Below are positions 27,918 to 44,025 of a stretch of 44,025 bases of DNA, piece by piece (the first letter of the stretch is position 1; each line of letters starts with the position of its first letter). The notes beneath the pieces are model-generated. The model did not search any database. It was not told where the DNA came from and worked only from the letters and a program-made list of their open reading frames with translations. The stretch covers positions 1-44,025 of the forward strand of contig CALFNB010000384.1 of NCBI GenBank assembly GCA_937902425.1. Reading direction: 5' to 3'. The position numbers were made by a program, and so were the translations under genes. This stretch comes from an uncultured Acetobacteraceae bacterium (lineage in GTDB: Bacteria; Pseudomonadota; Alphaproteobacteria; Acetobacterales; Acetobacteraceae).

Positions 27918-28253
27918 GCATTCTCGGGTCGAGCCCTGTGGCATGCACACATCGTTGGGCTGAACCGTCACCATACTCCGGTGTCGGGACGGGGGCGCCA
28001 GAACCTCGGCAAGTAAGTTTTCTGACACGGAGGAGACAGGGAAAAGGAAGTGTGGCGCTTCGTGCGGGCGGTCGATCATACACCGCTCGAAGTATTCAGA
28101 ATTCTTGCTTTCCGTGAGAATCCGTGTCTTTTCCCTGTCTTCTCCGTGTTAAAGCCTTGCTTTCTTTCGGCCGGCGGACCAACCGATGAACACCAAAGAC
28201 GCACATCTGAATTCGAGATGTGTGAATCTTGTAGGGCTCGACCCTGAGGCATG
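27918..28253 (+). repeat. MITE-like palindromic element, copy A
   Basis: About 336 bp that aligns along nearly its whole length with the reverse complement of copy B (38930-39292). Shared landmarks in order are CACACATCGTTG, CATACTC/CAATACTC, GCCAGAACC, GGCAAGTAAGTTTTC, the ACGGAG-AGACAGGGAAAAGG arm, GATCATACACCGCTC, the complementary arm TTTCCGTGAGAATCC...CTTCTCCGTGTT (28109-28150), AACCAACCGATGAAC and GATGTGTGAATCTTG. Its first internal arm (28024-28047) is shortened: about 20 bp present in copy B are missing, probably by slippage between GGAAAAGG repeats. It fills most of the 484-bp gap 27870-28353, which otherwise has no gene. No transposase is encoded. Confidence 0.8.
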
Positions 28254-28334
28254 CACATCTTGAGCGAGACATTCGCGGGATGCCGCGCGAAGCTCAGCAA
28301 TCAAGTAAGCAAGGATTTAACACGGAGGACGCTG
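28241..28334. repeat. Degenerate half copy of the palindromic element
   Basis: Directly after copy A, the sequence ACCCTGAGGCATGCACATCTTGA ... AAGTAAGCAAGGATTTAACACGGAGGAC resembles the first half of copy B read on the plus strand (CCCTGCAAGATTCACACATCTTGA ... AAGCAAGACTTTAACACGGAGAAGAC). It is therefore a half element in the opposite orientation to copy A, suggesting a nested or repeated insertion. The middle is poorly conserved. Confidence 0.5.
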
Positions 28335-28353
28335 ACCGGCGCGGACGGCACCG

Positions 28354-29136
28354 TCACCGATCGACCGGCTGAATTTCCTCAACGCCGGTTGATGCCTGTC
28401 GCGGCATGCGCGAGCCCGTTAAAAGCGCCGCGGACAATCGCGCATACATGCCGATCAACAGCAAATTATCGCGCAGGTATTTGAAGTGCGAAACACCACC
28501 CTCGACACGGCGAAAATATCGCACCGGAGTGGGAACGTTGATGGGGCGGACGCCCAGCCAGCATAACCGTATCGCTGCTTCGGAGTCGAAATCGAAGCGC
28601 CGCATCCCCGGCGTCTCCGCGAATATCCTGATCAGGGGAGCGATCGGATAGACGCGAAATCCGAACAGCGAATCCCCAATCGCGCCGCGCGGCGTCACCA
28701 CACCGGCGCAGAAATTCGCGATCTTATGCCCAAACACCCGGATACGCGGCGCGCTCTCATCGAACAACGGCAAGCCCAGTACCATGGAATCGGGATGTGC
28801 GAGGGACGCCGCGATCATGACTTCGATATGCTCCGCCGAATGTTGGCCGTCCGCATCCATGGTCAGCGCATGCGTGAAACCCCGCGATCGGGCGAGCTTC
28901 AACCCATGCAGGATCGCCGCTCCCTTGCCTTGATTTCTCGGCAGGATACAAGTGAACAGGCCCGGGTCGTCCTCGGCCATGCGGGTCAATGCCTCTCCGG
29001 TGCCATCCGTGCTGCCGTCGATGACCACGATGACCGGCCATGCGAGCCGACGGGCACCGGCGATTGTCTCGTAGAGGCGCGAGCCGGTGTTGTAACTCGG
29101 AATCAGGACCACATGGGTCAGCCGATCAGCATTCAT
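28354..29136 (-). CDS. Glycosyltransferase family 2 protein
   Basis: A 260-residue GT-A fold glycosyltransferase. The start VVLIPSYNTGSRLYETI, the loop VIVVIDGSTDGTGEAL and the metal/nucleotide motif MDADGQH are the standard family 2 landmarks (close to dolichol-phosphate-mannose synthase types), followed by RNQGKGAAILHGLKLAR. ATG 29136 is preferred over an in-frame TTG at 29142. Glycosyltransferases of this type are common in aryl-polyene and xanthomonadin clusters, where they decorate the lipid-like product. It is the last gene of a minus-strand group (PqiC-like, FAD enzyme, GT2) that faces the plus-strand pigment genes. Only 25-31 bp separate it from the FAD enzyme gene, so they are co-transcribed. 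Confidence 0.88.
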   Translation of the reverse strand: MNADRLTHVVLIPSYNTGSRLYETIAGARRLAWPVIVVIDGSTDGTGEALTRMAEDDPGLFTCILPRNQGKGAAILHGLKLARSRGFTHALTMDADGQHSAEHIEVMIAASLAHPDSMVLGLPLFDESAPRIRVFGHKIANFCAGVVTPRGAIGDSLFGFRVYPIAPLIRIFAETPGMRRFDFDSEAAIRLCWLGVRPINVPTPVRYFRRVEGGVSHFKYLRDNLLLIGMYARLSAALLTGSRMPRQASTGVEEIQPVDR

Positions 29137-29167
29137 ACTCAACCATTACCTGGCGGGCCTGGTGGCT

Positions 29168-30472
29168 TCATGCTTTACCGGACCGCGCCAACGGCCTGGC
29201 GGTATTCCGGGCCAGCAGTCGTTCCGCCTTGGCCGCGAGGGACTTCAGGTAATACAGACCCTTGAACAGGCCCAGGCGGGCGTGGATCGGCGATGGGCGA
29301 AACACGTCGCCCGCCAGCAGCGACATCACCGACTCCCGCAGGCGCAGCGGATTGCCGTTGTTCATGAACAGCGCGCGGATCGCCGGACGGTTGACGCGAT
29401 AGATGAACCAGGAAAACCGCTCCATCGCGCGGTTCACGTCCGCCTCATAGCGGCGCAGCGCGAGCGCGGCCTCGTCCGCCGTCTTGTGCAGACAGGCAGT
29501 GACCGCATCGGCGGCGAGGAACCCGCTCTGCATGGCGATAAAGACCCCTGACGAGAACACCGGATCGATAAAGCCATAGGCGTCACCAACCATGAGATAA
29601 CCGGGTCCGGAAATGCGGTCGGACTTGTAGGAGTAATTCCCGGTGGCGGTTGCCGGGCCGATCAGCTCGGCGTCGCGCAACCGGTCCGACAACGCCGGCG
29701 ACATGGCGATCACGTCCTTGAGAAACGTGGTCACGTCGGTCTTGCGCGTCTTCATGAAATCCGCGTGGCAGACCGCTCCGACGCTGGTGGTTCCATCCAA
29801 CAGCGGAATGAACCAGAACCACCCGTGGTCGAACCAGAACAAACTGATGTTGCCCACCGCCTTGCCGGGCAGCCGCCGCGCGCCGGTGAAATGACCATAT
29901 ATCGCCGCGGTATGATGTTGCTTATTGCTGACCTTGGTTCCCAACTTATTGGCGAGCAGCGTGTCGCGTCCGGAGGCATCGACGAGAAACTTCGCCGCGA
30001 ATTGTTGTTCCCGCCCATCCTCCGCGCGCGCCCGCGCGACGACGCCGCCTTCCGCCGGAAATTCCACCCCGGTGATCCGCCAGCCGTCGATCACCTGAGC
30101 GCCGGTCGCGGCCGCGTGTTTCCACAAAACGTGATCGAACTCCGATCGCCGGACCTCGTAGGCGGAGGAAAGACTCTTGTCCCAGGCTTGCGCGAACTCC
30201 AGGTGCGACGGTTTGTCATGCCATGGAGAAACGAATTCGGCGCCGTATTTGGGGATCCCGATGCGGGCGATCTCATCGGCGACCCCGAGTTGTTCGAACA
30301 ACGGCATGTTCATCGGCAACAGCGACTCGCCGATGTGAAAGCGCGGGTGATGGTCTTTCTCGATCAACAGGACGCGCTCACCGCGGCGGGCCAGCAGGGT
30401 CGCGACAGTCGACCCACCTGGGCCGCCGCCGACCACGAGGACGTCGTACCGCTCGTCGCTGGTAATCACCAT
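29168..30472 (-). CDS. FAD-dependent oxidoreductase, flavin halogenase-like
   Basis: A 434-residue FAD enzyme. It starts with a Rossmann dinucleotide site (VLVVGGGPGGSTVATLLARRGERVLLIEKD) and has the second FAD motif GYLMVGDAYGFIDPVFSSGV. Two features point to the flavin-dependent halogenase group: WFWFIP (218-223), which fits the WxWxIP signature, and a lysine in GIPKYGAEF (K75) at the place of the catalytic lysine. Halogenase-like enzymes accompany xanthomonadin-type aryl polyenes. It could halogenate or oxidise the aryl head, or have lost halogenation. ATG 30472 is chosen (AAGG about 8 nt upstream); a GTG at 30490 in frame is an alternative. It is probably co-transcribed with GT2. Confidence 0.8.
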   Translation of the reverse strand: MVITSDERYDVLVVGGGPGGSTVATLLARRGERVLLIEKDHHPRFHIGESLLPMNMPLFEQLGVADEIARIGIPKYGAEFVSPWHDKPSHLEFAQAWDKSLSSAYEVRRSEFDHVLWKHAAATGAQVIDGWRITGVEFPAEGGVVARARAEDGREQQFAAKFLVDASGRDTLLANKLGTKVSNKQHHTAAIYGHFTGARRLPGKAVGNISLFWFDHGWFWFIPLLDGTTSVGAVCHADFMKTRKTDVTTFLKDVIAMSPALSDRLRDAELIGPATATGNYSYKSDRISGPGYLMVGDAYGFIDPVFSSGVFIAMQSGFLAADAVTACLHKTADEAALALRRYEADVNRAMERFSWFIYRVNRPAIRALFMNNGNPLRLRESVMSLLAGDVFRPSPIHARLGLFKGLYYLKSLAAKAERLLARNTARPLARSGKA

Positions 30473-30572
30473 GGCATCGACCTTTGGCACGAGTTCAACC
30501 GGAGGTTCGGTGGCTTATAGCCGCCAGGCGGGACAGGACGCCAGCGTCGCCGCGCCGCGGAGCACCGGCCCT

Positions 30573-31175
30573 TCACCGCGGGTGAGCCGAGCCCCGGCGC
30601 AGACTGATCGCGATGCGGTCCGCGAGTTGATCGACGGTTGCCTCCATGGCTGACACGATGGCGGCGTCCGTGAGGGACTCTTTGGACCCCGCCGCCGCCA
30701 TGGTCAGGAATGTTCCCCGCTCGGCGACCGCGGCGGTCCCCGGGTCTTGCCCCGGGATCGTCCAGCGCGCGGTCAGCACGCATCGACCATCCGGCTGGAC
30801 ATCGAAGGAACCGACGTCGACCAGCAGCCGTCGGGCGGGCTGACCCGACAGCCACGAATGCACCACCAGCATGCCCGGCAGGCGCCGCTCCAGTGAGGCC
30901 TCCAGCGCATGCGTGATCCCGACCGACAGCCGCTCCCCCCACTGGCCCGTCTTACTCGGCTTTAGTTCGTTGCGGCCATCGCGCAGCAAAATGTCCGTGA
31001 TGTCGAGGTAGTCTGGCAGCGAGACAGTGGGCAACTCCAGCACCGGCCGGCCCGCTTCACCGTGCACGCCCACGATCGGATCGGCTGGCGCGCTGAGCAC
31101 GTAAGTGCGGGGAACCGGGTTGGATGAGCAACCCGTCAGAACGATCAACGCCAGCAACGTCAGATGTGATCTCAT
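30573..31175 (-). CDS. PqiC/ABC-type transport auxiliary lipoprotein family protein
   Basis: A 200-residue lipoprotein. The signal ends in the lipobox VLTGC (Cys 16) followed by SSNPVPRTYVLSAP, and the body has PVLELPTVSLPDYLDITDILLRDGRNELKPSKTGQWGERLSVGITHALEASLERRLPG, which matches the DUF330/PqiC family (outer-membrane lipoproteins that bridge MCE transport systems). Partners PqiA/PqiB or MlaEFD-like genes are absent from the window, so this is an orphan copy. It precedes the FAD enzyme and GT2 genes on the same strand, suggesting a role in envelope delivery of the pigment; this is inference. ATG 31187 in frame is an alternative start. Confidence 0.78.
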   Translation of the reverse strand: MRSHLTLLALIVLTGCSSNPVPRTYVLSAPADPIVGVHGEAGRPVLELPTVSLPDYLDITDILLRDGRNELKPSKTGQWGERLSVGITHALEASLERRLPGMLVVHSWLSGQPARRLLVDVGSFDVQPDGRCVLTARWTIPGQDPGTAAVAERGTFLTMAAAGSKESLTDAAIVSAMEATVDQLADRIAISLRRGSAHPR

Positions 31176-31223
31176 CGTAACGATCATCCCAACAGACCGG
31201 TGCACTGGTTGGTTCCATCCCAT

Positions 31224-31432
31224 GGCTCGCCGGTCACGGGCGTGTCTTTCAACGTGATACTGTTACGCTCTGGCGGCCCTGGGTTGGGCGCCAAAGCAGC
31301 CGGGTCAGGCGACGCCCGACCGCATTAGTGCCAAGTGAACCTCATGGCTGACGGACGATAATTGCCGGCTTTCGATCGGAACAGATTCGGAATCTACTCA
31401 GGTTGCCCTTCGACCCGCGGGTCTGCTCAGTT
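31224..31432. other. Intergenic region without recognised gene
   Basis: About 209 bp between the PqiC-like gene start and the stop of the next minus-strand gene. It should carry the promoter of the PqiC-like/FAD enzyme/GT2 group. I see no repeat, RNA gene or convincing promoter boxes. Confidence 0.35.
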
Positions 31433-32554
31433 TCAAAGCACCGCGATCCGCTCCAGAAAGCGCGCCTTTCGTGCGTGCCGTGCCCGGATTTCCACAATGC
31501 GACGGATGAAATCCGGCAGTGCATCGCGCTCATCCGCGACTGCCTTGAGTTCCTCAAGCAAATCCGCCGCACGGTCGTAGCTGGAGGCGTTGCTCCGCTC
31601 GATTTCGGCCTCGACGTCACGCCACACGCCTTCCCCGCGGCGCGCGATCGCCAGCAGCCGCTGCCGGCGCTTCTCCTCCTGTTGCCGCGCGCGCTGTTCG
31701 CGTTCCTCAGCCTCACGCCGGGCGGCTTGCTGTTGGCGGGCGAGGCTGAGTTCCGCGGCGCGGGCCCGGAGATCAGCGACAGTGCGCGGCGGTGTTGGCT
31801 CCCGTTCGGCATCCAGGCGGTTCCTTACGGCGGCGCGCAATTCGGCGGCGACATGCGGGTCGCCCTCGACCAGCCGCGACAGGAGTGTGGTCTTTGCCTG
31901 ATCGGACAGGCTGGAGATGGCGTCTCGCGCGGCATCGGGCGGGATCGCGCCAAGGCCAGGCACACCTTCACGTTCCGCTGCCGCCTGGACCAGATCGGGG
32001 TCGAGGCAAAAGAACGCGGCGAATGCCTCCAGCCGACCGGTCAGCGGTCCAATTCCCGGCAGCGGTTCCGGCGTGTCCGCACCAACCACGTCAAACTCAA
32101 CCGCCATCAGCCAAATGAGATAAAGCAGCCGCGAATCGCCCGCGAGCAGATCGGCCCGCAACGGCGCCAGCGTATCGAGCAAGCCTGGGCCGTCATCCCA
32201 ATCCACCTCCAGTTCCCGAAGTTCGACGTTGAGGATCAGATGATCTCCCGCGACCCTGACCCTGGCGAATTCGGGGTCAACCAGGCACGCATCGACCACT
32301 CGGCGGTCAATCAATCGTTCCGGAACACGAATCATCAAACGGCGGGTGCCCCAGTTCGCCAGGTAGAGATGGAGGTCGAACCATTCCTCCATCAGCGCAT
32401 TGGGATCACCCTTGAAGTCGCCCCACTGGTAGGTATTCGTGAAACTCGTGGCCGTGATCTGGGCGCGGGACGACAAGGCCCGCAACGAGTTTCGCGCGGC
32501 CGTGTCGAGCAGGCGGTCGATCGCCCGAAATTCGTAATACTGGTATTCGCTCAT
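31433..32554 (-). CDS. Conserved protein of unknown function with C-terminal coiled coil
   Basis: A 373-residue soluble protein. The N-terminal part (EYQYYEFRAIDRLLD, then ITATSFTNTYQWGDFKGDP, then WFDLHLYLANWGTRRLMIRVP) is a pattern I have met in conserved bacterial proteins without known function. The middle is helical, and residues about 265-320 form a charged Arg/Glu/Gln-rich coiled coil (SLARQQQAARREAEEREQRARQQEEKRRQ in part). There is no signal peptide or membrane segment. It is the second gene of a two-gene unit, 32 bp behind the gene that ends at 32587, so the two products probably work together. I assign no activity. Confidence 0.7.
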   Translation of the reverse strand: MSEYQYYEFRAIDRLLDTAARNSLRALSSRAQITATSFTNTYQWGDFKGDPNALMEEWFDLHLYLANWGTRRLMIRVPERLIDRRVVDACLVDPEFARVRVAGDHLILNVELRELEVDWDDGPGLLDTLAPLRADLLAGDSRLLYLIWLMAVEFDVVGADTPEPLPGIGPLTGRLEAFAAFFCLDPDLVQAAAEREGVPGLGAIPPDAARDAISSLSDQAKTTLLSRLVEGDPHVAAELRAAVRNRLDAEREPTPPRTVADLRARAAELSLARQQQAARREAEEREQRARQQEEKRRQRLLAIARRGEGVWRDVEAEIERSNASSYDRAADLLEELKAVADERDALPDFIRRIVEIRARHARKARFLERIAVL

Positions 32555-32586
32555 GATCTCATGTGTCGTCGGAGGGGGGAACGTTA

Positions 32587-33003
32587 TCAGATGGGGTAGA
32601 GTACTTCATCCGTTTCAAGTATGTGCAATGCCTCGGCGAGCGTGACGCCCGAGTGCAACGGCAACCAGCGCCCCGTGTGGCGCATCCAGTAGATATTGAA
32701 CCGATCCGGCCCCATGTGGTCGATGCGAGCAAACGGCGCATCGAATTCCTCGCCGCGGTTTTCTTCAAATCCCGACCGGTAGCGCTGCATGAAGCGATAT
32801 CGCCCGGCACCCCATGCACCATGAATGTCGATGACGTAGTTCCATTGGGTCGGCCTGATTTCCCGCAGGAATCGTGGCTTCAGGACGTCGCGAATAAAGT
32901 TTTCGCAGGCGCTGACGATCGCTTGCTGTTCCAGCGCGTCAGGCCGTGCCGGCCCTGGGCTTCGGCTGGACAATCGCCAGACTTTTGGTTGCTTTCGGGC
33001 CAT
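32587..33003 (-). CDS. Small conserved protein of unknown function
   Basis: A 138-residue protein: a basic start (MARKQPKVWRLSSR), a helical stretch LEQQAIVSACENFIRDVLKPRFL, then WNYVIDIHGAWGAGRYRFMQRYRSGFEENRGEEFDAPFARIDHM and GPDRFNIYWMRHTGRWLPLHSGVTLAEALHIL, which looks like a compact aromatic-rich domain. I recognise it only as a conserved hypothetical type. ATG 33003 is chosen because AAGGA lies about 10 nt upstream and similarity starts after it; the open frame extends far upstream into the AtuA gene in another frame and should not be used. It pairs with the coiled-coil protein gene 32 bp downstream. Confidence 0.7.
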   Translation of the reverse strand: MARKQPKVWRLSSRSPGPARPDALEQQAIVSACENFIRDVLKPRFLREIRPTQWNYVIDIHGAWGAGRYRFMQRYRSGFEENRGEEFDAPFARIDHMGPDRFNIYWMRHTGRWLPLHSGVTLAEALHILETDEVLYPI

Positions 33004-33064
33004 TCCATCGATCCTTGTCCGCCGCACTGGCCACGAAGAGTATGAAACGCCGCGTCCCGATTCG

Positions 33065-34465
33065 TCACCCCTGTATCGTCTCGATCTCCATCGGAAACAA
33101 CGCGTCAGGGTCATCGACCTTGAGCAGATGGTAAACGTTGAACCGGTACGCGGGCCCAAGCGAGACCTCCGGCGGCGTGAACGGAAACGCGAGATTGCCG
33201 GCGGTGGAAAGCCGCCCAGGATAGCCGAAGTGAAGCAGGTACTGCTTGCAGGTACGCACGACTTCTGACGCGCGCTCCCGAGTCGGCGCGATGCATTCGC
33301 CCATGATGAACACTTCGCCGGGCGGCGCCTCGCTCGCGGGCACGACCATGCGAACCCCATCCACGCCGTAAACCCGCCAGCGTAACGTATAATCCTGGGC
33401 CTGATCCTCGCACACCAGATCGCGCACGAGGTCGGACAGCTTCGGCAGAATTTCCTTGCTCTGGGCTATGAAGCGCGGATCGGCGGCACCGGCGAGCAGC
33501 ACCGCACGCTCGCCGATCAGACGGGCGCCCTCCATTTTGATCGTGGGACGGTCAGTGTCGTGCCAGACCGCGCCGGAGACCCGGGTCCGCCGGTCGTCCA
33601 CCGCCTCATACCGCGCGTTCGACAGGTCGAGCATTCCCTCCGGCTCATGCACGGTGAACGGGTCCGCCTGCTCATACAGGCTGTGCGCGGCGACCGAGGT
33701 TGGGGTGGCACGGCGCTCGGGGTTGGTGCTTTCCAGCACGAATCCGTCGTCGTCCAGCTCGGCGATGATCGGGTCGCGCCCACCGGGAACGCAACAAAGC
33801 GAGGCGCACTCGATGATCTTGGCCATGTGCATCGCGAGACCGGCGTCAAAGCCCAACAACATTGGCAGCGCGGCGAAGATGCCGGTGTCGCAGGCGCGGC
33901 CGGCGATGACGACATCGACGTCCGCCTCCAGGGCGCGGCGGAACACGCCAGTGCCCATCTGGCCCACAATGTGAGCAGCTTCGGTGATGTCGTCGTCGGT
34001 CAGGTCCGGCATGTCGTCGAAGCTGACGATCCGGCCGGCGCGGGACGCCTCCAGCAGCATCGGCCGCGACAGATCGGCGCGGATCACCGCCATGCGGAAC
34101 CGCAGCCCGTCGGCGCGCGCGATGTCGCGGATGATCGCCAGCGTCGCGTCGAGATGCGGCGCCGCGCCCGCCGAGCCCGCCGAGCCGATGACCAGCGGCA
34201 CATCCAGGCTCCTCGCCGCCAGCAGCACTTTACGCAGATCGCGACGGGTTGCCTCGGGCGCTGTCGCCATCTCGCCCTTGCCGAGGTAGGTCGGCCCAAT
34301 ATCGATCGAGCCCATGTCGCAGCCGATCAGATCCGGCTGGCGCGCGAGGCCGGTGTTGAAGCCCGGCGTCGGAATGCCGTAGCCGAGCTGGCCGGATGCA
34401 CCCAGCAGACGCAGCGGCCGGCGGGCGCGGCGAACTTCGGACAGAATGCGGCCGGAGGCGCTCAT
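33065..34465 (-). CDS. AtuA family (DUF1446) acyclic terpene utilization-like protein
   Basis: A 466-residue member of the AtuA/DUF1446 family, named from the citronellol/geraniol degradation locus of Pseudomonas. Biochemical function is still unclear. Family segments are LRLLGASGQLGYGIP near the start, DLIGCDMGSIDIGPTYLG, VPLVIGSAGSAGAAPHLD, VIAGRACDTGIFAALPMLLGFDAGLAMHMAKIIEC and the C-terminal YGVDGVRMV and EVFIMGECIAP. ATG 34465 overlaps the stop of the DUF4387 gene (ATGA 34462-34465). Longer starts to 34831 would run out of frame through that gene. AtuA with a DUF4387 partner is a common pair near CoA-dependent acid catabolism; the acid here is unknown. Confidence 0.86.
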   Translation of the reverse strand: MSASGRILSEVRRARRPLRLLGASGQLGYGIPTPGFNTGLARQPDLIGCDMGSIDIGPTYLGKGEMATAPEATRRDLRKVLLAARSLDVPLVIGSAGSAGAAPHLDATLAIIRDIARADGLRFRMAVIRADLSRPMLLEASRAGRIVSFDDMPDLTDDDITEAAHIVGQMGTGVFRRALEADVDVVIAGRACDTGIFAALPMLLGFDAGLAMHMAKIIECASLCCVPGGRDPIIAELDDDGFVLESTNPERRATPTSVAAHSLYEQADPFTVHEPEGMLDLSNARYEAVDDRRTRVSGAVWHDTDRPTIKMEGARLIGERAVLLAGAADPRFIAQSKEILPKLSDLVRDLVCEDQAQDYTLRWRVYGVDGVRMVVPASEAPPGEVFIMGECIAPTRERASEVVRTCKQYLLHFGYPGRLSTAGNLAFPFTPPEVSLGPAYRFNVYHLLKVDDPDALFPMEIETIQG

Positions 34466-34764
34466 AATTCGATCCCCAGCAACGGCGCGTGCTGCTGCGC
34501 GCCATAGACGTCGACGTCGCCCGGATCGCCGGCCATGATGCGGCGCGCGAGCACGATCTTGATGGCGCGGCCGGCGGGATACGGGATGACGGTCACGGCT
34601 TCGGGAGGCACGCCGTACAGCCGGCCGACCGCCTCGGGGCCCAACGCTGGAGATTGCGCGACTCGTTGATAGTCGGCGTCGGTGGCGAACATCACATCCA
34701 GCGTCAGCCGCCGCGGCCCAGCATTTTTGCTGCGTATGACCTGGGCGAGATCGGAGAGTTTCAT
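34462..34764 (-). CDS. DUF4387 domain-containing protein
   Basis: A 100-residue protein covering a whole DUF4387 domain (MKLSDLAQVIRSKNAGPRRLTLDVMF through PYPAGRAIKIVLARRIMAGDPGDVDVYGAQQHAP). The family is small, soluble and found next to or fused to AtuA-family proteins, presumably as a subunit of the same enzyme. ATG 34764 gives the usual family length; upstream in-frame starts to 34893 would add non-family residues and run into the divergent shikimate dehydrogenase gene. It is the first gene of the minus-strand pair and diverges from the quinate genes across about 121 bp (34765-34885), which must contain promoters for both directions. Confidence 0.85.
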   Translation of the reverse strand: MKLSDLAQVIRSKNAGPRRLTLDVMFATDADYQRVAQSPALGPEAVGRLYGVPPEAVTVIPYPAGRAIKIVLARRIMAGDPGDVDVYGAQQHAPLLGIEL

Positions 34765-34885
34765 GGTGACCCGAACAAGGTTGATCCCGCGGCGGGAAGG
34801 ATGCCAGATGCGGGTCCGGGCATGGAGACATGGCCGGCGATGGTCCGCAAGGGCAGCAGGGAGACCCAACGGGGAGTCAAGGTCC

Positions 34886-35758
34886 ATGTTCAACCGTCAG
34901 GCCCTGATCGGACTGATCGGCGCCAACATCATGAAGTCGCTGGCGCCGGCGCTGCACATTGACGCCTTCGCGGCGGCCGGCATCACCGGGCACTACCATT
35001 TGATGGACGTCGATCAACTGCCCGGAAGGACGCTGAAGGGTCTGCTGAACGCGGTGAAGACCGCCGGCTTCCTCGGGGTGAACATCACGTTTCCATTCAA
35101 GCAGGAGGTCATGCCGCTGCTGGACGAACTCTCGACCGAGGCGCGGCAGACCGGAGCGGTCAACACCGTGGCGATCTCGCGGGAGGGTCGCACAACCGGC
35201 CACAACACGGACCGCGGCGGCTTCCGGTTGAATTTCGAAGACGGACTCGGCCGCGCCGCCGCCGCAGGTAAGACGGCGGTGCTGGTCGGTGCGGGAGGTG
35301 CCGGCAGCGCGGTGGCGTTCGCGCTGATGGACCTCGGGCTGCGCGAGTTGATCGTGTTTGACAAGGACTCCGCGCGCGCGTCGGCGTTGGCCGCTGACGT
35401 GTGCACGCATTTTGGGGTGGGACGTTGCCGCGTGTCGGAACGGTTGAATGATGAAATCGCCGCCGCCGATGGTGTCGCGAATGCCACGCCGATCGGGATG
35501 GCGGGCTTCCCCGGCAATCCGGTCCCGGTCGAGGCATTGCGTCCGGATCACTGGGTCGCCGACGTGATCTACACGCCAATCGAGACCGAGCTGATCCACG
35601 CGGCGGCGGCCCAGGGGGCGCGCGTGCTGACCGGAGGCGGCATGTGCGTCCATCAGGGCGTCGACGCGTTCCGGCTGTTCACCGGCATCAGCCCCGACGT
35701 GGCACGCATGCACCGCACGTTCAACGATGCACTCGCGACGCGGGATGCGGTGCCATGA
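34886..35758 (+). CDS. Shikimate/quinate dehydrogenase (AroE family)
   Basis: A 290-residue NAD(P)-dependent dehydrogenase that interconverts shikimate (or quinate) and 3-dehydroshikimate (or 3-dehydroquinate). The substrate pocket is visible as IMKSLAPALH, NITFPFKQ (catalytic K72) and GHNTDRGGF (catalytic D109); the nucleotide site is VGAGGAG (134-140), and the C-terminal GGGMCVHQGVDAFRLFTG is also typical. Overlap by ATGA with the QuiC1 gene and the PcaHG genes beyond it point to a catabolic role feeding 3-dehydroshikimate to QuiC1, rather than the biosynthetic AroE. Cofactor preference is not clear from sequence. ATG 34886 has AAGG upstream and begins just before the family start. Confidence 0.88.
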   Translation: MFNRQALIGLIGANIMKSLAPALHIDAFAAAGITGHYHLMDVDQLPGRTLKGLLNAVKTAGFLGVNITFPFKQEVMPLLDELSTEARQTGAVNTVAISREGRTTGHNTDRGGFRLNFEDGLGRAAAAGKTAVLVGAGGAGSAVAFALMDLGLRELIVFDKDSARASALAADVCTHFGVGRCRVSERLNDEIAAADGVANATPIGMAGFPGNPVPVEALRPDHWVADVIYTPIETELIHAAAAQGARVLTGGGMCVHQGVDAFRLFTGISPDVARMHRTFNDALATRDAVP

Positions 35759-37605
35759 AAACCGCGATCGCGACGGTTTGTCTCAGTGGCGGGCTGGATG
35801 AGAAGCTGTTGGCCATCGCCGCCGCCGGCTTCAAAGGCGTCGAGATTTTCGAAAACGATCTGCTCTCGTTCAACGGCACGCCAAAAGATGTCAGGCACGC
35901 GGCCGAGGATCTCGGCCTGACGATCGTCACGTTCCAGCCGTTCCGCGATTTCGAAGGCATGCCGGCTGACAAACGCGAGCGCGACTTCGTCCGCGCCGAG
36001 CGCAAATTCGATCTGATGGCGGAACTAGGCTGCGATCTGCTGATGGTTTGCTCCAACGTGTCTCCGGAAAGCGCCGGCGGGATCGACCGCGCCGCCGAGG
36101 ATTTTCATGCGCTTGGCGAGCGTGCGGCGAAACGCGGGATGCGCGTTGGGTTCGAGGCTCTGGCCTGGGGCCGCCACATCAACGACTACCGCGACGCGTG
36201 GGAGGTCGTGCGGCGAGCCGGTCATGCATCGGTCGGCCTGGTGCTCGACTCGTTTCACATTTTGTCGCGCAAGACCGACCTCAAGGCGCTGACCGCGGTG
36301 CCGAGGGATCGAATCTTTCTCGTGCAATTGGCCGACGCGCCCGTCCTGGAAATGGATTTTCTCTCCTGGAGCCGTCATTTCCGCAACTTTCCTGGGCAGG
36401 GCGACTTCCCAGTGCTGGACTTCATGATCGCGTTGCAGCAGACCGGCTATGATGGGTTGTTGTCGCTGGAAATCTTCAACGATCAGTTCCGCGCCGGCTC
36501 CGCGCGGAGCGTCGCCATCGATGGGCATCGCTCGTTGATCTGGTTGCTGGACCAAATGGGTGGTTCGGCACCGTCGTTGCCGCCTCGCGCGCTTTGTCTC
36601 GGCACCGAATTCATCGAATTCGCGATGGACGAAGCAACTGAGCCATCGTTCAACGCGCTGATGCGCGGCCTGGGTTTCGCGCGTAGCGGGGTTCATAAAT
36701 CCAAATCGGTGACGCGATGGTCGCAAGGCGGCATCAATCTTGTCGCCAATACCGAAAAGGAAGGCTTCGCCCATTCTTACTACATCACCCACGGTACCGC
36801 GGTTTGTGCCCTGGGTCTGCGAGTTGACGATGCGGCGGCCACATTGCGCCGGGCGCGCGGCCTGCTAGATCAGCCGTTTCAGCAGGCGGTCGGCCCAGGG
36901 GAACTGGAGATTCCGGCGGTGCGGGGTGTGGGTGGCAGTTTGATGTATTTCATCGATCCGGCGAGCAAGCTCGCGCGGGTCTGGGACATCGAGTTCGAGC
37001 CGACCGGCGAGACGGCGCCGGATGCCGGTCTCACCGTCGTCGATCATATCTCGCAGTCGATGCATTACGAGGAGATGTTGACCTGGTTGCTGTTCTATTC
37101 GTCGTTGCTCAATCTGGACAAAGTACCGGCGCAGGACGTGCTGGACCCGGGCGGCCTCGTGAAAAGTCAGGTGGTGCGATCGGCGGACGGCGCGGTCCGG
37201 ATCATTCTGAATGCGTCGCAATCGAGTCGTACGCAGTCCTCGCGGTTCCTGTCGGAGGTGTTCGGATCAGGCGTGCAGCATATCGCCCTGGCGACCGACG
37301 ATATCTTCGCAACGGTTGCGAAACTGCGGGAAAACGGCGTTCCCCTGCTCCGCATCCCGGAGAATTACTACGATGACCTGGAAGCTCGGACCGGCCTGAG
37401 CGGTGACGAACTCGACCGGCTGAAATCATTGGACATCCTGTATGACCGGGATGGCACGTCGGAATATTTCCAGGTTTACACGCACACATTCGAGGACCGG
37501 TTTTTCTTTGAGGTCGTGCAGCGGCGAAATTACACGGGCTTTGGCGCGGCCAACGCGTCGATCCGCCTCGCCGCGCAGACCCGTCTCGCACAACAAATCG
37601 ACTGA
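35755..37605 (+). CDS. quiC1: 3-dehydroshikimate dehydratase QuiC1 fused to HPPD-like domain
   Basis: A 616-residue two-domain protein. Residues 1 to about 285 form a sugar-isomerase-like TIM barrel that dehydrates 3-dehydroshikimate to protocatechuate. The metal ligands E134, D165, Q191 and E239 all fall where QuiC1-type dehydratases have them. Residues about 300-616 are a 4-hydroxyphenylpyruvate dioxygenase-like domain with an intact 2-His-1-Glu set: H431 in VDHIS, H509 in VQHIALATDD and E586 in FFFEVVQRR. Annotation pipelines often call such proteins 4-hydroxyphenylpyruvate dioxygenase, but the order AroE-like, QuiC1, PcaH, PcaG supports the dehydratase role. The start overlaps the dehydrogenase stop (ATGA 35755-35758). 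Confidence 0.9.
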   Translation: MKTAIATVCLSGGLDEKLLAIAAAGFKGVEIFENDLLSFNGTPKDVRHAAEDLGLTIVTFQPFRDFEGMPADKRERDFVRAERKFDLMAELGCDLLMVCSNVSPESAGGIDRAAEDFHALGERAAKRGMRVGFEALAWGRHINDYRDAWEVVRRAGHASVGLVLDSFHILSRKTDLKALTAVPRDRIFLVQLADAPVLEMDFLSWSRHFRNFPGQGDFPVLDFMIALQQTGYDGLLSLEIFNDQFRAGSARSVAIDGHRSLIWLLDQMGGSAPSLPPRALCLGTEFIEFAMDEATEPSFNALMRGLGFARSGVHKSKSVTRWSQGGINLVANTEKEGFAHSYYITHGTAVCALGLRVDDAAATLRRARGLLDQPFQQAVGPGELEIPAVRGVGGSLMYFIDPASKLARVWDIEFEPTGETAPDAGLTVVDHISQSMHYEEMLTWLLFYSSLLNLDKVPAQDVLDPGGLVKSQVVRSADGAVRIILNASQSSRTQSSRFLSEVFGSGVQHIALATDDIFATVAKLRENGVPLLRIPENYYDDLEARTGLSGDELDRLKSLDILYDRDGTSEYFQVYTHTFEDRFFFEVVQRRNYTGFGAANASIRLAAQTRLAQQID

Positions 37606-37619
37606 AACGGATCCATACC

Positions 37620-38321
37620 ATGACAGAACTCTTCAATCCCCGCGATTGGTCCGGCCAGCCGGGCTACATCGCGCCGGACTATAAATCCACACCGTTGCGC
37701 GGCCCCACGAAGCCGCTGATCCCATTGCCGCAAACACTCTCGGAGCTGACCGGACCAGTTTACGGCCAGGAGAGTGTCACCGGACAGGATGCCGACCTGA
37801 CGCGTAATGGCCGTCGCAATGGCGAACCGTTGGGCGAACGCATCATCGTGGCCGGCCGCGTGCTGGACGAAGATGGCCGGCCTGTCCCCAATACGCTGCT
37901 GGAAATCTGGCAGGCCAACGCGGCGGGCCGTTACATCCATCAGACCGATCAGCATGACGCGCCGATTGATCCAAACTTCTTCGGCGGCGGTCGTTGCGTG
38001 ACGAACGCTGACGGCGCTTATCGCTTCATGTCGGTAAAGCCCGGCGCCTATCCCTGGCCGAACCACCACAACGCGTGGCGGCCGAACCATATTCATTTCT
38101 CGCTGTTCGGGCCGAGCTTTGTGACGCGCCTTGTCACCCAGATGTATTTTCCGGGCGATCCGTTGCTCGCTCTCGATCCAATCTTTCTGGCAACGCCGGC
38201 GGAGACCCGCGACCTGCTGATCGCGCAATTCAGTCTGGACCTGACGGAACCGAATTATGCGCTTGGCTATGCGTTCGACATCGTGCTGCGTGGCCGTACC
38301 GCGACACCGATGGAGGCCTGA
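37620..38321 (+). CDS. pcaH: Protocatechuate 3,4-dioxygenase beta subunit
   Basis: A 233-residue catalytic subunit of the intradiol ring-cleavage enzyme that converts protocatechuate and oxygen to beta-carboxymuconate. All four Fe(III) ligands are present: Y105 in GRYIHQ, Y144 in GAYPWPN, and H157 and H159 in PNHIHFSLFG. The N-terminal segment PRDWSGQPGYIAPDYKSTPLRGP and the intradiol signature RVLDEDGRPVPNTLLEIWQANAAGRY are typical of PcaH. It lies 14 bp after QuiC1 and 3 bp before pcaG, in one transcription unit. The rest of the beta-ketoadipate pathway is not in the window. Confidence 0.95.
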   Translation: MTELFNPRDWSGQPGYIAPDYKSTPLRGPTKPLIPLPQTLSELTGPVYGQESVTGQDADLTRNGRRNGEPLGERIIVAGRVLDEDGRPVPNTLLEIWQANAAGRYIHQTDQHDAPIDPNFFGGGRCVTNADGAYRFMSVKPGAYPWPNHHNAWRPNHIHFSLFGPSFVTRLVTQMYFPGDPLLALDPIFLATPAETRDLLIAQFSLDLTEPNYALGYAFDIVLRGRTATPMEA

Positions 38322-38324
38322 GCG

Positions 38325-38912
38325 ATGACGAAACTGAGACAAACGCCATCGCAGACGGTTGGGCCATACTTCGCGTATGGTCTGTCGCCGGAACAATACG
38401 GCTACCAGCAGAATTTGACCAGCATCGCGGGCAGCCAGATGGCGGAAGGCGATGTCGAGGGCGAGCGCATTCGCGTCGAGGGCCGGGTGTTCGATGGTGC
38501 CGGCAATCCGATCTCCGACGCATTGATTGAAGTCTGGCAGGCTGACTCGCTGGGGCGGTACGCGCATCCGGCGGATCCGCGGGGCAGCAACAACACGTTC
38601 AAGGGGTTTGGACGTTGCGGTACCGGCACGGACCCGCGAAACCGATTTTGGTTCGACACGATCAAGCCAGGCCAGGTTGCCCCTGGGCAGGCGCCGCATT
38701 TGAACGTCATCGTGACCATGCGAGGGATGTTGCTGCACGCATTTACTCGGATTTACTTTTCGGACGAAACGGCGAACGCCACCGACAAAGTGCTGGCCGC
38801 GGTGCCGGCGGAGCGGCGCGGCACCCTGATCGCCACACATCAGGGTGGCAATGTCTACCGTTTCGATATCCACATGCAGGGCGACGATGAGACGGTGTTT
38901 TTCGACGCGTGA
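38325..38912 (+). CDS. pcaG: Protocatechuate 3,4-dioxygenase alpha subunit
   Basis: A 195-residue structural partner of PcaH. It starts with the alpha-subunit signature QTPSQTVGPYFAYGL and shares the intradiol fold segment GRVFDGAGNPISDALIEVWQADSLGRY, but lacks the full set of iron ligands (HLNVIV replaces the HIHF site), as expected for alpha subunits. The QYGYQQN and YFSDE segments are also characteristic. The gene follows pcaH by 3 bp with an ATG at 38325. It is the last gene of the quinate/protocatechuate unit; repeat element copy B begins 17 bp after its stop. Confidence 0.95.
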   Translation: MTKLRQTPSQTVGPYFAYGLSPEQYGYQQNLTSIAGSQMAEGDVEGERIRVEGRVFDGAGNPISDALIEVWQADSLGRYAHPADPRGSNNTFKGFGRCGTGTDPRNRFWFDTIKPGQVAPGQAPHLNVIVTMRGMLLHAFTRIYFSDETANATDKVLAAVPAERRGTLIATHQGGNVYRFDIHMQGDDETVFFDA

Positions 38913-38929
38913 TACGGGCCGCCATTGTC

Positions 38930-39292
38930 GTCATACTCGGGCCTGACCCTGCAAGATTCACACATCTTGAATTCAGGTGTCCGTCTTTGGCGTTCATCGG
39001 TTGGTTGCCTGGCGGAAAGAAAGCAAGACTTTAACACGGAGAAGACAGGGAAAAGGCAGGGATTCTCACGGAAAGTCCGGAGTTTTACACGCTTAGAGCG
39101 GTGTATGATCGAACGTCCGCGCGAAGCCCACACTTCCTTTTCCGTGAGAATCCGTGCCTTTTCCCTGTCTTCTCCGTGTTGGAAAACTTACTTGCCATGG
39201 TTCTGGCGGCACCGTCCTGACAAGGGAGTATTGTGAGGGTTAAGCGCAACGATGTGTGCGAACCGCGGGGCCTGCCCTGGCCCGGGGATGAC
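38930..39292 (-). repeat. MITE-like palindromic element, copy B (complete)
   Basis: A 363-bp element filling almost the whole pcaG-thrC gap (38913-39299, no gene). Its ends are imperfect terminal inverted repeats: GTCATACTCGGGCCTG at 38930 and, reading inward on the other strand from 39292, GTCATCCCCGGGCCAG; both are followed by a TTC(A/G)CACATC block. Inside lie two long arms, 39033-39074 and 39139-39180, that pair at 41 of 42 positions around a 64-nt loop. Its reverse complement aligns with copy A at 27918-28253. No target duplication or transposase is visible. Ends this close to both genes suggest it may also act as a transcription boundary. Confidence 0.85.
39033..39180. repeat. Long hairpin: 42-nt inverted arms (41/42 match)
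   Basis: Arm one, AACACGGAGAAGACAGGG... to ...ATTCTCACGGAAA (39033-39074), is the reverse complement of arm two, TTTCCGTGAGAATCC... to ...CTTCTCCGTGTT (39139-39180), with a single mismatch. The transcript could fold into a very stable stem between the convergent pcaG and thrC genes, working as a bidirectional terminator or 3'-end stabiliser. That function is inferred; the pairing is visible directly. Confidence 0.85.
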
Positions 39293-39299
39293 GGTCGTG

Positions 39300-40700
39300 T
39301 TACCTGTTCCGTCCCACCAGCGCGCGGACGTTCGCCTCCACCGCGGCCAGATCGTTTGGTAGCACGACGAAACGTTCCGGCCGCGCCATCAGGTCCGCGA
39401 GTCTGGGCGGCAATACGGGCCGGATACCGACCGCCTGCTCGATCGCATCGGGGAATTTCGCCGGGTGCGCGGTGGCCATCGCCACCGTCGGAACGCCATG
39501 CGCGGGTGGCTGCGCCCGCGCCGCCGCGATGCCGATCGCGCTGTGGGGATCAGCGAGATACCCACATGCGTCATGCAGACGGCGGATCTCCGCCGTGGTG
39601 CCGGGATCGTCCAGTCGGAAGCCATGGAACACCGTCCGCACACGATGCCAGTCGGCATCGGACACCGCCATGCGGCCGGTGGCACGGAAGCCGCGCATCG
39701 CATCGGCGGTGGCGACGGGATCACGGTCAAACAGTTCGAACAACAACCGCTCGAAGTTGGAGCTGACCTGGATATCCATCGACGGCGACAGCGACGGCTC
39801 AACCGGCGCCATCGACATGTCGTTGCGTTCCAGGAATCGGGTCAGGATATCGTTACGGTTCGAACCGACGATGAGTCGCGCCACCGGCAGACCCATGCGG
39901 CGCGCGGCCCAGGCGGCGAGGATATTGCCGAAGTTGCCGGTGGGAACGGAGAAGGCGACTTCTCGATCGGGCGCGCCCAGAGCCAGCGCGGCGGCGACAT
40001 AATAGGGAATTTGCGCGGCGATGCGAGCCCAGTTGATGGAGTTGACGGCGGACAGACTCATTTCGGTACGGAATGGAACGTCGGCGAACAGTGCTTTGAG
40101 GAGGTCCTGACAATCGTCGAATGTGCCCTCAATCGCGACATTGCCGACATTTGGTGCCAGCACGGTGGTCATCTGGCGGCGCTGCACGAGGCTGGTGCGC
40201 GCGTGCGGATGCAGAATGACGATGTCGATACGATCGCGATTGGCGCAGGCCTCGATGGCGGCGGATCCGGTGTCGCCCGAGGTGGCGCCGACAATCGTCA
40301 CACGAGCGTTTCGTTCAGCCAGCACGTGCTGGAACAGCAAGCCCAGTACCTGCATCGCCATGTCCTTGAAGGCGAGCGTCGGGCCGTGGAACAGTTCTTG
40401 CGCGAACAGATGGGTTTCCAGTTGCACCAGCGGCACGACCGCCGGATGGTCGAAGCCGGCATAAGCCTCATGACAAATCTTCGTCAGCGCCTCGAAAGCG
40501 ATCGAGCGGCCGACGAACGGGCACATCACGCGCGCGGCCAGGTCGGGATATGACAGCCCGCGCATGGCGCGCCAGTCGGCGGCGGAGAAAAGCGGCCAGC
40601 TCTCGGGCATGAACAGGCCGCCATCCTCGGCGAGGCCCGCGAGCAGGACACCGGCGAAATCGCGTACGGGCGCCTGCCCGCGGGTGGAAATATAGCGCAT
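39300..40700 (-). CDS. thrC: Threonine synthase
   Basis: A 466-residue PLP enzyme converting O-phosphohomoserine to threonine. The N-terminus MRYISTRGQAPVRDFAGVLLAGLAEDGGLFMPE is the standard ThrC start; the PLP lysine is K112 in LAFKDMAMQ, and IVGATSGDTGSAAIEAC, SINWARIAAQIPYYV and VPTGNFGNILAAW are family hallmarks. Length is normal for the longer bacterial ThrC class. It is a housekeeping gene transcribed toward pcaG, with repeat copy B between the two stops. Upstream (40701-40918) is a 218-bp divergent region with a 29-bp tandem repeat. No thrA or thrB is adjacent. Confidence 0.95.
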   Translation of the reverse strand: MRYISTRGQAPVRDFAGVLLAGLAEDGGLFMPESWPLFSAADWRAMRGLSYPDLAARVMCPFVGRSIAFEALTKICHEAYAGFDHPAVVPLVQLETHLFAQELFHGPTLAFKDMAMQVLGLLFQHVLAERNARVTIVGATSGDTGSAAIEACANRDRIDIVILHPHARTSLVQRRQMTTVLAPNVGNVAIEGTFDDCQDLLKALFADVPFRTEMSLSAVNSINWARIAAQIPYYVAAALALGAPDREVAFSVPTGNFGNILAAWAARRMGLPVARLIVGSNRNDILTRFLERNDMSMAPVEPSLSPSMDIQVSSNFERLLFELFDRDPVATADAMRGFRATGRMAVSDADWHRVRTVFHGFRLDDPGTTAEIRRLHDACGYLADPHSAIGIAAARAQPPAHGVPTVAMATAHPAKFPDAIEQAVGIRPVLPPRLADLMARPERFVVLPNDLAAVEANVRALVGRNR

Positions 40701-41800: not shown

Positions 41801-44025
41801 ATGATACGCCAAAACCCCCGAATTTTTCGTCTGTCCGCCACCGTCGCCATCGGCGCCTTGCTTTGCAACGCGGCCACGCCGATCGCCATGGCCCAGGCGC
41901 CGCCGCCACCCGCCGGGCAGCCCGGTCAAACCCCCCCCGGTCAAAGCCCCCCCGGTCAAAACCAGGGTGACCCTCCGGACCGGGTCGGACGCATCGCGAG
42001 CGCGACCGGCGCGGTTTCCTTCCGCACCAGCGCGGACACCGATTGGAGCGCGGCCACGGCGAACTATCCGGTCAGCGCCGGCAACGCGTTCTGGACTGAA
42101 CCGAACGCTCGCGCGGAACTGGAGATTTCCGCCAGCCGCATCGACCTGTCGGGGCAGACCGAGTTCGACGTGACGACATTGGATGCCGGCGGACTCCAGG
42201 CGGTGGCACCGCAAGGTGAAATGTATCTCCATGTTCTCGATCTCGCCCCGAATGAGGTCTGGTCGGTGCAAACTCCGCGCGGCATGGTGCGACTGACCCA
42301 GGCCGGCCGTTACGGCATCGTTGTCGGCACCACGGAGCAGCCGACGCAGGTGACAGTCCTGGAGGGCGCGGCCGAAATCGAGGGCCCGGGCGTGTCCCTG
42401 AAAATCGCGGCCAACCAGACCGCGACGGTGACCGGGGCCGACACCTTCCAGGGCAGCGTTGGCCCGGCGGTGCGCGACGCGTTTCTTGCCGCCAGACTGG
42501 GGGCGGACCGTCCTCCACCCCAGCGGACGGCAGCGATCCCAGCCCAGATTGCATACATGCCGGGCGGCGAGGACCTGCAAACCTATGGCGAGTGGTCGCA
42601 GGCGCCGGATTATGGCGAGGTCTGGTATCCGCCCGTCTCGCCGACCTGGGTTCCCTATCGGGACGGTCAGTGGGCGTATGTCGCGCCCTGGGGTTGGACC
42701 TGGGTGGACGCCGCTCCATGGGGTTTCGCACCCTTCCACTACGGCCGCTGGGCTCATATCGGCCCGCGCTGGGGCTGGGTCCCTGGCGAGGAAAGCGCCC
42801 GCGAACGGCCAGTCTACGCACCCGCTTTGGTGACCTTCATCGGCGTCGGCGCCGGGCTCGCCGTGGGCGCCGCGATCGCCCACCGCTCGGTCGGCTGGGT
42901 GCCTCTGGGCCCGCGCGAGGCATACCATCCCTGGTACCATGCCTCGGATAACTACGTCCGGCAGGTCAATGCCGGTCATGTCAGGGATGCGACCACGATC
43001 AACAACAACGTCGCCATCAACAATTTCGCCAACCGCGCCGCGGCGACCTCGGTGCCGGCGAGCATCATGACCGGGTCGCGTCCGGTGCGCGTGGCGGCCA
43101 GGCCGATTTCGCAGCAGGCATTCGCGGCGGCCCATCCGGTGATCGGGCAGCAGCCGATAGGCCCCACGGTCAGAACGCTCGGTGTCACCCCGGCGGTGGC
43201 GCGTCAACTGGATCTGCACGCCGCCGGTCCCCAGGTTCCCGCACGGCGGCCCGCCCCCGGTCCGGTGGTGCGGGTCCAGGAACCCGGCGCCGAGAAGGGT
43301 CCCCCACCGCGCCCGGCGCTTATCGGTTCGCATGGGGAACAACCCGGTGGTCCACGCCCCGGCGAGCCGGCCGGGCCAGGCCCGGGAGCAACGCATGCGC
43401 CAGGCGTTCCGCCGCCGTTGACAGGCCCGGGACCACGGCCCTCTGGGGTGCCGGAGGGGGCTCGTCCTTCAGGCCAGCCGTCCGGTACAGCCGCGCCACC
43501 GGGGCAGCCACCCCGGCCCGCCACATCTCAGGGCCAGCCCGCGAGTATCGCCGCGCCTCCTCCGGGCCCTCGCCCCGAGGGCGTGCCTCGGCCCGGAATC
43601 GCGCCTGAGGTAACTCGTCCAGGCGGTCCTCCACCGCTCGCTGCCCCAGGGACGCCGCCGGCCGGGGTGCCGGGGACTCCTCCTCCAGGAGGTCGCCCGC
43701 CCTCGGTTGAGCGTCCAACGCCTGGCGCCAATCCCACCGCACCGGGTGGTCATGAACCGCCGCCGCATGTCGTGACGCCGGAGGCCGCGCATCCCGCGCC
43801 GCCACCGCATATCGCCACGCCGGAGGCACCACGTGCCGCGCCGCCGCCGCACATCGCGACGCCCGAAGCACCGCGTCCAGCGCCGCCACCGCATGTCGAA
43901 GCGCCGCGGCCCGCGCCTCCGCCTCCGCCACCCCACGTGACGGCGCCCGCACCGCCGCCGCCACCGCATGTCGAAGCGCCGCGGCCCGCGCCTCCGCCTC
44001 CGCCGCATGTCGAAGCGCCGCGGCC
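41801..44025 (+). CDS. FecR/DUF6600-like secreted protein, Pro-rich, cut by window end
   Basis: The frame from ATG 41801 stays open to the window end (at least 741 codons). An N-terminal signal peptide (LSATVAIGALLCNAATPIAMAQ) and PPGQ repeats precede a FecR-like beta domain (RVGRIASATGAVSFRT ... VTVLEGAAEI, about 60-220). Then come Trp/Tyr-rich DUF6600-type repeats (YGEVWYPP, TWVPYRDGQWAYV, PWGWTWVDAAPWGFAPFHYGRWAHI, RWGWVPG; about 265-330) and a membrane-like glycine/alanine segment (VGAGLAVGAAIA). The remaining half is extremely proline-rich with PPPHV/EAPRPAP repeats. It is probably periplasmic or surface exposed; function is unknown. A long open frame on the opposite strand (41789-43396) is a GC shadow. 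The C-terminus is not in the window. Confidence 0.82.
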   Translation, partial: MIRQNPRIFRLSATVAIGALLCNAATPIAMAQAPPPPAGQPGQTPPGQSPPGQNQGDPPDRVGRIASATGAVSFRTSADTDWSAATANYPVSAGNAFWTEPNARAELEISASRIDLSGQTEFDVTTLDAGGLQAVAPQGEMYLHVLDLAPNEVWSVQTPRGMVRLTQAGRYGIVVGTTEQPTQVTVLEGAAEIEGPGVSLKIAANQTATVTGADTFQGSVGPAVRDAFLAARLGADRPPPQRTAAIPAQIAYMPGGEDLQTYGEWSQAPDYGEVWYPPVSPTWVPYRDGQWAYVAPWGWTWVDAAPWGFAPFHYGRWAHIGPRWGWVPGEESARERPVYAPALVTFIGVGAGLAVGAAIAHRSVGWVPLGPREAYHPWYHASDNYVRQVNAGHVRDATTINNNVAINNFANRAAATSVPASIMTGSRPVRVAARPISQQAFAAAHPVIGQQPIGPTVRTLGVTPAVARQLDLHAAGPQVPARRPAPGPVVRVQEPGAEKGPPPRPALIGSHGEQPGGPRPGEPAGPGPGATHAPGVPPPLTGPGPRPSGVPEGARPSGQPSGTAAPPGQPPRPATSQGQPASIAAPPPGPRPEGVPRPGIAPEVTRPGGPPPLAAPGTPPAGVPGTPPPGGRPPSVERPTPGANPTAPGGHEPPPHVVTPEAAHPAPPPHIATPEAPRAAPPPHIATPEAPRPAPPPHVEAPRPAPPPPPPHVTAPAPPPPPHVEAPRPAPPPPPHVEAPR
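43760..44025 (+). repeat. Proline-rich coding repeats at right edge
   Basis: In-frame repeats code PPPHV(V/I/E)(T/A)PE and EAPRPAPPPPPHV units. GCATGTCGAAGCGCCGCGGC recurs at about 43892, 43967 and 44006, and near copies of CCGCACATCGCGACGCC at about 43807 and 43844. The array continues past the window end, so its copy number cannot be given. Confidence 0.75.

Follow-up and report, generated by a model that had tools for sequence, protein, structure and literature searches.

The locus and its two inverted repeats

The window analysed here, a 44,025-nucleotide stretch of contig CALFNB010000384.1 (assembly GCA_937902425.1) from an uncultured Acetobacteraceae bacterium, contains two copies, A and B, of a palindromic element placed in opposite orientation on either side of an 11-kb block. 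Both lie between convergent genes. The neighbours of copy A are a reading frame that ends at 27869 and the gene for a family-2 glycosyltransferase (28354–29142); those of copy B are a dioxygenase-family gene (38325–38912) and a threonine synthase gene (39300–40700). A sequence-only reading of the window had taken the two copies for miniature inverted-repeat transposable elements (MITEs), and had suggested that, as an inverted pair, they could recombine and invert the enclosed block.

As had been claimed, copy A matches the reverse complement of copy B nearly throughout, with 254 of 290 aligned positions identical and 25 additional gap columns (88% identity over aligned positions, 81% with gap columns counted). 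A repeat finder splits the pair into inverted arms of 129, 115 and 36 nt, and the 42-nt arm pair described in copy B was recovered with 41 of its 42 positions matching. The middle of the element is a long imperfect hairpin, with a 21-nt deletion within one arm in copy A, and the RNA folding z-scores are −8.0 for copy B and −7.4 for copy A (100 shuffles each). No Rfam family matched anywhere in the window at the gathering threshold. The ranges first proposed (27918–28253 and 38930–39292) do contain the elements, which are themselves shorter (Table 1), the outer bases being those of a repetitive extragenic palindrome (REP).

The longest reading frame inside the element is 59 amino acids (aa) in copy A and 89 aa in copy B. 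In the other copies of the family described below the longest frames vary (33 to 110 aa), and three of the 12 near-complete ones have a 68-aa frame in common. Judged from reading frames alone, the elements are likely to encode no protein, as had been proposed, with the recurring frame as a qualification.

Copy number and element-free sites

The assembly of the source genome comprises 6.8 Mb in 667 contigs and is 89% complete. A blastn search of this assembly with copy B returned 49 matches (40 scored of 60 candidate places), which resolve to 12 near-complete copies and at least 8 partial ones, several of the latter sitting at contig ends. The copies have diverged, showing 75–85% identity to copy B; they are probably fossil or rarely mobile, and we infer that the family is inactive at present. 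Across 59 genomes, the source included, a match of any kind was found in six, those in the five others being only partial. An exact 28-base piece of the hairpin arm had no match in the genome_contigs collection, a result that speaks only for other genomes, since the source genome was possibly left out of it, and copy B had no match in the plasmid records searched. The MITE family looks specific to the source species or its close kin.

Relatives were found without the element at both sites. In one genome (G028), the genes flanking copy A are convergent neighbours with ~25 bases between their aligned ends and no element; in another (G006), the genes flanking copy B lie ~25 bases apart, again with no element; and in a third (G027), the copy B junction spans ~330 bases and holds several REP-like palindromes and no element. 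For the left junction, the neighbouring gene was seen in one of six relatives with the glycosyltransferase; for the right, dioxygenase genes stood beside threonine synthase in two of 29 relative loci, which reach at most 1.5 kb past the match and less at contig ends. Further copies and empty sites for both A and B, the observations by which the sequence-only reading had proposed to judge mobility, are thus both present.

Element ends, REP palindromes and target duplications

Alignment of all located ends (13 and 17 of the two types) separates two termini that are related yet differ: C TGTG GCATGCACACATC at the 5'-type end and C TACA AGATTCACACATC at the 3'-type end. They form imperfect terminal inverted repeats, about 18 bp long with a common core, CACACATC. 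Outside each end lies a half palindrome, ATNCTCGGGN5CCC; the palindrome, written in full, is GTCATCCTCGGGTCGAGCCCGAGGATGAC, and it has the form of a CGTC-type REP. In a register test over the 30 ends, the mean agreement in exact register was 8.4 of 11 specified REP letters, with 21 of the 30 ends reaching at least 9; shifting the register by 3 to 30 bases gave means no higher than 4.3. Exact half-REPs occur at two places in the window, 27920 and 38933, both at element ends. With one mismatch allowed, the whole REP palindrome occurs at 16 sites in the source genome and in 30 of 33 genomes of the genus; a control search with the reversed palindrome gave no matches.

Both ends could be located in ten of the 12 near-complete copies (L004 and L011 are without a located 5'-type end), and these ten entered the duplication test. 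As direct repeats, their flanking 9-mers show a summed agreement of 59, compared with 43.9 when flanks are re-paired at random (p 0.005); as inverted repeats, the corresponding values are 39 and 40.3 (p 0.63). Flanks of 11 bases likewise agree as direct repeats. Agreement per copy is 9, 9, 8, 8, 7, 6, 4, 4, 2 and 2 of 9 bases, with 8 for copy B and 4 for copy A, and in L005 the two ends carry exactly the same unusual REP centre. The surviving duplications are 9 bp long and span the palindrome centre. An IS231-type target, GGGN5CCC with an 11-bp duplication, was considered and dropped: in L113 and L126 the C beside the duplication belongs to the element, leaving 9 bp.

At copy A, the right flank reverse-complements the left one and adjoins a truncated second MITE, which makes a chimeric junction likely. 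Imperfect repeats around ISRm22 are ascribed, in PMC1525189, to recombination between copies. The truncated MITE directly adjoins copy A, the REP centre between them being shared, and has the same design as the locus L100.

A candidate transposase clade

The source genome holds 18 matches to DDE_Tnp_1, one of which, L091, is located immediately inside an end (TACAAGAGTCACACATC) that has a REP-like flank. It is a fragment of an IS4-type transposase with the YREK residues, YRARWMIEQLFRTMK, and one of 18 positions in its end is mismatched. The 247-aa open frame of L091 has relatives in 15 of the 59 genomes, the source included. Clade relatives amount to 58 named loci, 47 of them alphaproteobacterial by title. 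Three of four scanned proteins score above the NCBIfam cut-off for the IS4 family NF033590, the fourth, the L091 fragment, falling below it, and the L110 protein matches Tn5 transposase structures (E 2e-27). The search for a transposase with matching ends, which the sequence-only reading had recommended, led to this fragment in the source genome and to full-length insertion sequences (ISs) of the clade in related genomes.

IS edges were read in 36 loci, namely 31 of the 58 named ones and five relatives of the L091 frame; in four the same IS is seen twice, leaving 32, and three more lack a flank, leaving 29 readable distinct ISs. Exact 9-bp duplications bound 12 of these 29 (a count qualified below), including copies in Rhodopseudomonas palustris JSC-3b, Mesorhizobium sp. 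L-8-3 and Pannonibacter phragmitetus. Several ISs (L176, L178, L179, L180, L188 and L194) lie in GTCATGGCC-like palindromes, some others lie in palindromes of another kind, CTCCCC...GGGG, and L126 has an exact duplication outside any REP.

The two MITE ends correspond to different IS ends. Of the MITE's two termini, called the A end and the B end, the first resembles IS 5' ends more closely in 22 of 24 loci (the other two are ties) and the second is closer to IS 3' ends in 19 of 24; for L190, the script that scored this asymmetry picked ends other than those of the edge reading. The B end is also identical over 19 bases to the 3' end of a relative IS (L110/L175). Going by these ends, the MITE looks like an IS whose middle was replaced, and we infer that the L091-type transposase clade moved the MITE family.

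Proposed origin of the elements

We conclude that copies A and B are very probably REP-targeting, non-autonomous miniature transposons with Tn5/IS50-like ends, inserted at the dyads of CGTC REPs with a 9-bp duplication. The original MITE reading is supported by multi-copy dispersion, terminal repeats, duplications in part of the copies, element-free sites and a transposase fragment with a matching end. Each member of the family, some 300–320 bp long, carries two different ends of an IS4-family, Tn5/IS50-like IS with a long imperfect hairpin between them. In the mechanism that we propose, a transposase encoded elsewhere would have bound both ends and moved the element, by cut-and-paste if the enzyme worked as its family does. 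Insertion would have taken place at the dyad of CGTC-type REP palindromes, duplicating 9 bp of the form GGN5CC.

Several observations weigh against this proposal. When the 18 transposase loci were first scanned with complete MITE ends, there was one weak match only, L088, with six mismatches, and L091 emerged from a looser pattern combining REP and end. L091 is truncated where its contig stops, and its homology carries on in a different frame, so that it looks broken, and no complete transposase of the clade was found in the source genome. Similarity between the MITE and the ISs is confined to ~18 bases per end; the B end is closer to the IS 5' end in five of the 24 loci, a set that holds four copies from one R. 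palustris genome. IS edges were chosen partly by the duplication they yielded, which makes the 12 of 29 a somewhat favourable count, and the other 17 readable ISs have no exact 9-bp duplication. Among the MITE copies themselves, duplication is weaker or absent in six of ten (agreement of 7 and 6 in two of them and of 2 to 4 in the other four), the flanks of copy A forming an inverted and not a direct pair. Half-REPs at up to two mismatches are not enriched in the window (19, compared with 22 in shuffles). The flanking genes at the empty sites come from other species, at 61–88% protein identity, and the gaps there could also be deletions.

The hairpin interior

The loop faces the opposite way with respect to the element ends in two of the 12 copies (L007 and L012), probably a sign that the arms have recombined or undergone strand switching. 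Correction of one arm by the other found no support within the A/B family: in the 11 of 12 copies compared (L006, with the 21-nt deletion, was left out), arm agreement was 0.910 within copies and 0.904 between copies (p 0.23). With arms no more similar within a copy than from copy to copy, the palindrome of this family is drifting.

Hairpins with the same inner stem and quite different arms occur elsewhere in the source genome and in G027. An IS-type end (at most two mismatches) lies within 350 bases of eight of the 12 such hairpins examined in the source genome, and of none of the four examined in G027. Among 16 hairpins of several subfamilies from two genomes, a count from which L102 was left out beforehand, the within-copy arm match was 489.5, compared with a mean of 247.5 and a maximum of 390 in 20,000 shuffles. 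Three of the 16 are exceptions: in L243, L244 and L245 the within-copy score is lower than their mean score against other copies, and the right arm is apparently missing from L243 and L245. In five more (L247, L250, L031, L036 and L040), another copy's arm outscores the hairpin's own. The matching of module arms within copies would reflect either selection for the structure or the rebuilding at times of one arm from the other.

Hairpin modules at L031 (1501–1696), L036 (1501–1700), L108 (1534–1705) and L249 (485–672) share the inner stem CGCTTCGCGCGG...CGCGCGAAGCGC; their arms, built from CACGGAG/CACGAAG-like units, vary between copies and mostly match within a copy. In one MITE copy of the source genome (L098, 442–798 on contig C549 of G000), the loop contains another palindromic repeat, of CACAGATACACACAGAT type, with TCGCTCTTATCGCGA in inverted orientation at its two boundaries. 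A relative's MITE (L039, 1504–1883) has similar ends within REP halves (10 of 11 bases are shared between the two centres) and carries a different palindrome, made of CCAGAGACCCAGAG units.

A wider proposal can be put forward tentatively, and we regard it as doubtful. The Tn5-like clade, spread over the Alphaproteobacteria, might favour the CGTC REP centre as a target and might also be the vehicle of the hairpin module found throughout the genus, whose arms would stay palindromic during turnover, implying that one arm is rebuilt from the other.

Alternative explanations

The REP halves, which stand at both ends in inverted orientation, might themselves be the mobile ends, moved by a REP-associated tyrosine transposase as in a REP doublet forming hairpins (REPIN) or a bacterial interspersed mosaic element (BIME), and the fact that such palindromes also occur whole fits that view. 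We consider it very unlikely: the Y1 transposase family PF01797 has no match in the source genome (G000, 89% complete; a control search was positive in five of 14 genomes), the flanking 9-mers match as direct duplications and not as inverted ends, and such palindromes also hold complete ISs that share the inner ends, one of the ISs, L126, having its exact duplication outside any REP. It is also unlikely that the elements moved only in the past and are now hairpins retained by the host between convergent genes to act as bidirectional terminators or to stabilise RNA. Seven of the 12 near-complete copies do lie between convergent genes, with four in tandem and one in divergent settings (by a codon-position heuristic), A and B fold strongly, and across the hairpin subfamilies arms match within copies. 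However, no pairing constraint is visible in the A/B family, whose arms are no more alike within a copy than between copies, relatives do without the element at both sites, and a convergent placement would be explained by the preference of REPs for convergent intergenic sites, as given in PMC1525189.

Two copies in opposite orientation on one contig could also constitute a functional invertible switch for the 11-kb block, an idea that is extremely unlikely to be correct. A and B are two of at least 20 copies in the genome, their identity, 88% or 81% with gap columns, is poor for homologous recombination, and gene order at the junctions is that of the window in the relatives found with both neighbours, G028 (left) and G006 and G027 (right). 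There is no sign of inversion between species, and the inversion suggested by the sequence-only reading found no support; the inverted pair as such is ordinary, and the 11-kb stretch is probably the gap between two copies, nothing more. Insertion of Tn5-like miniature elements into REP dyads remains our preferred explanation for both copies.

Feature coordinates

Table 1. Positions of the two MITE copies and of the features around them in the window.
Feature	Position	Strand	Remark
Left half of REP palindrome (ATTCTCGGGTCGAGCC)	27920..27935	+	Register test over 30 element ends
9-bp palindrome centre of the left REP half beside copy A	27927-27935		Within the 27920..27935 feature
Copy A of the MITE, 299 bp	27936..28234	-	IS 5'-type end at 27936, IS 3'-type end at 28234
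REP centre common to copy A and the next element	28235..28243	+	Reverse complement of 27927-27935, hence not a direct duplication
Second, truncated MITE of another subfamily	28244..~28345	+	IS 5'-type end, then AACACGGAG hairpin arm; right boundary approximate
Left half of REP palindrome (GTCATACTCGGGCCTGACC)	38930..38948	+	9-bp duplication GGCCTGACC at 38940-38948
Copy B of the MITE, 320 bp	38949..39268	+	IS 3'-type end at 38949, IS 5'-type end at 39268
Central hairpin of copy B	39033..39180	no strand	42-nt arms, 41/42 paired, 64-nt loop
Second 9-bp duplication copy (GGCCTGCCC) and remaining REP half (imperfect)	39269..39295	+	8/9 identical to the left copy

Elsewhere in the window, an array of 18-bp tandem repeats (GGCGGCGCGGCCTGACCC-like) occupies positions 14307–14596, and GC-rich tandem repeats with units of ~42 bp fill positions 43755–44025 at the contig end.

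Significance and relation to known systems

A Tn5-type IS clade and MITEs that use the REP dyad would give CGTC REPs a mobile-element partner, with a testable target rule (GGN5CC, 9 bp). The family also explains the long hairpins seen in Acetobacteraceae genomes and is probably behind some of the contig breaks, contig ends being where several of the partial copies are located. Its hairpin cargo also makes it testable how long palindromes stay palindromic despite sequence change. Our literature search, from which subscription literature was mostly absent, found no paper on REP-targeted MITEs or on transposable elements of Rhodopila. The kind of element is known; in the literature searched, nothing was found that combines Tn5-like ends with REP-centre targeting and a modular hairpin cargo.

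Bacterial MITEs such as ERIC, NEMIS, Nezha and others (PMC3733652) are alike in being short, dispersed and without evident coding, in having terminal inverted repeats and target duplications, and in that they can fold; the present family differs from them in its Tn5/IS50-type ends, with distinct 5' and 3' versions, and in its insertion into REP centres. The IS50/Tn5 subgroup of the IS4 family (PMC2266710) has the same YREK motif and duplications of 8–9 bp. Compared by eye with the end consensus of that subgroup, CW------Y---CA-A--W-, the B end fits every listed position, whereas the A end has G where W stands at position 19 (PMC2266710). The target seen here, GGN5CC and often within REPs, sets the family apart from the subgroup.

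A parallel in behaviour is ISRm22 of Sinorhizobium meliloti (PMC1525189), an IS4-family element assigned to the subgroup IS4Sa (PMC2266710). It too is inserted at the palindrome axis of alphaproteobacterial REPs, and some of its copies have imperfect duplications (PMC1525189). ISRm22 is, however, a full IS with 6-bp repeats (PMC1525189), whereas we find a MITE and a Tn5-like clade with 9 bp, and the two are likened by description and not by sequence.

The palindromes themselves resemble the CGTC-tagged REPs of PMC3733652, which begin with CGTCAT, have a short stem and a 5-base loop, and are mainly alphaproteobacterial. That paper reports CGTC REPs as missing in Acetobacteraceae and their links to transposases as only fortuitous. 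In contrast, CGTC-type palindromes are present here in 30 of 33 genomes of an Acetobacteraceae genus, where they would serve as transposon landing sites.

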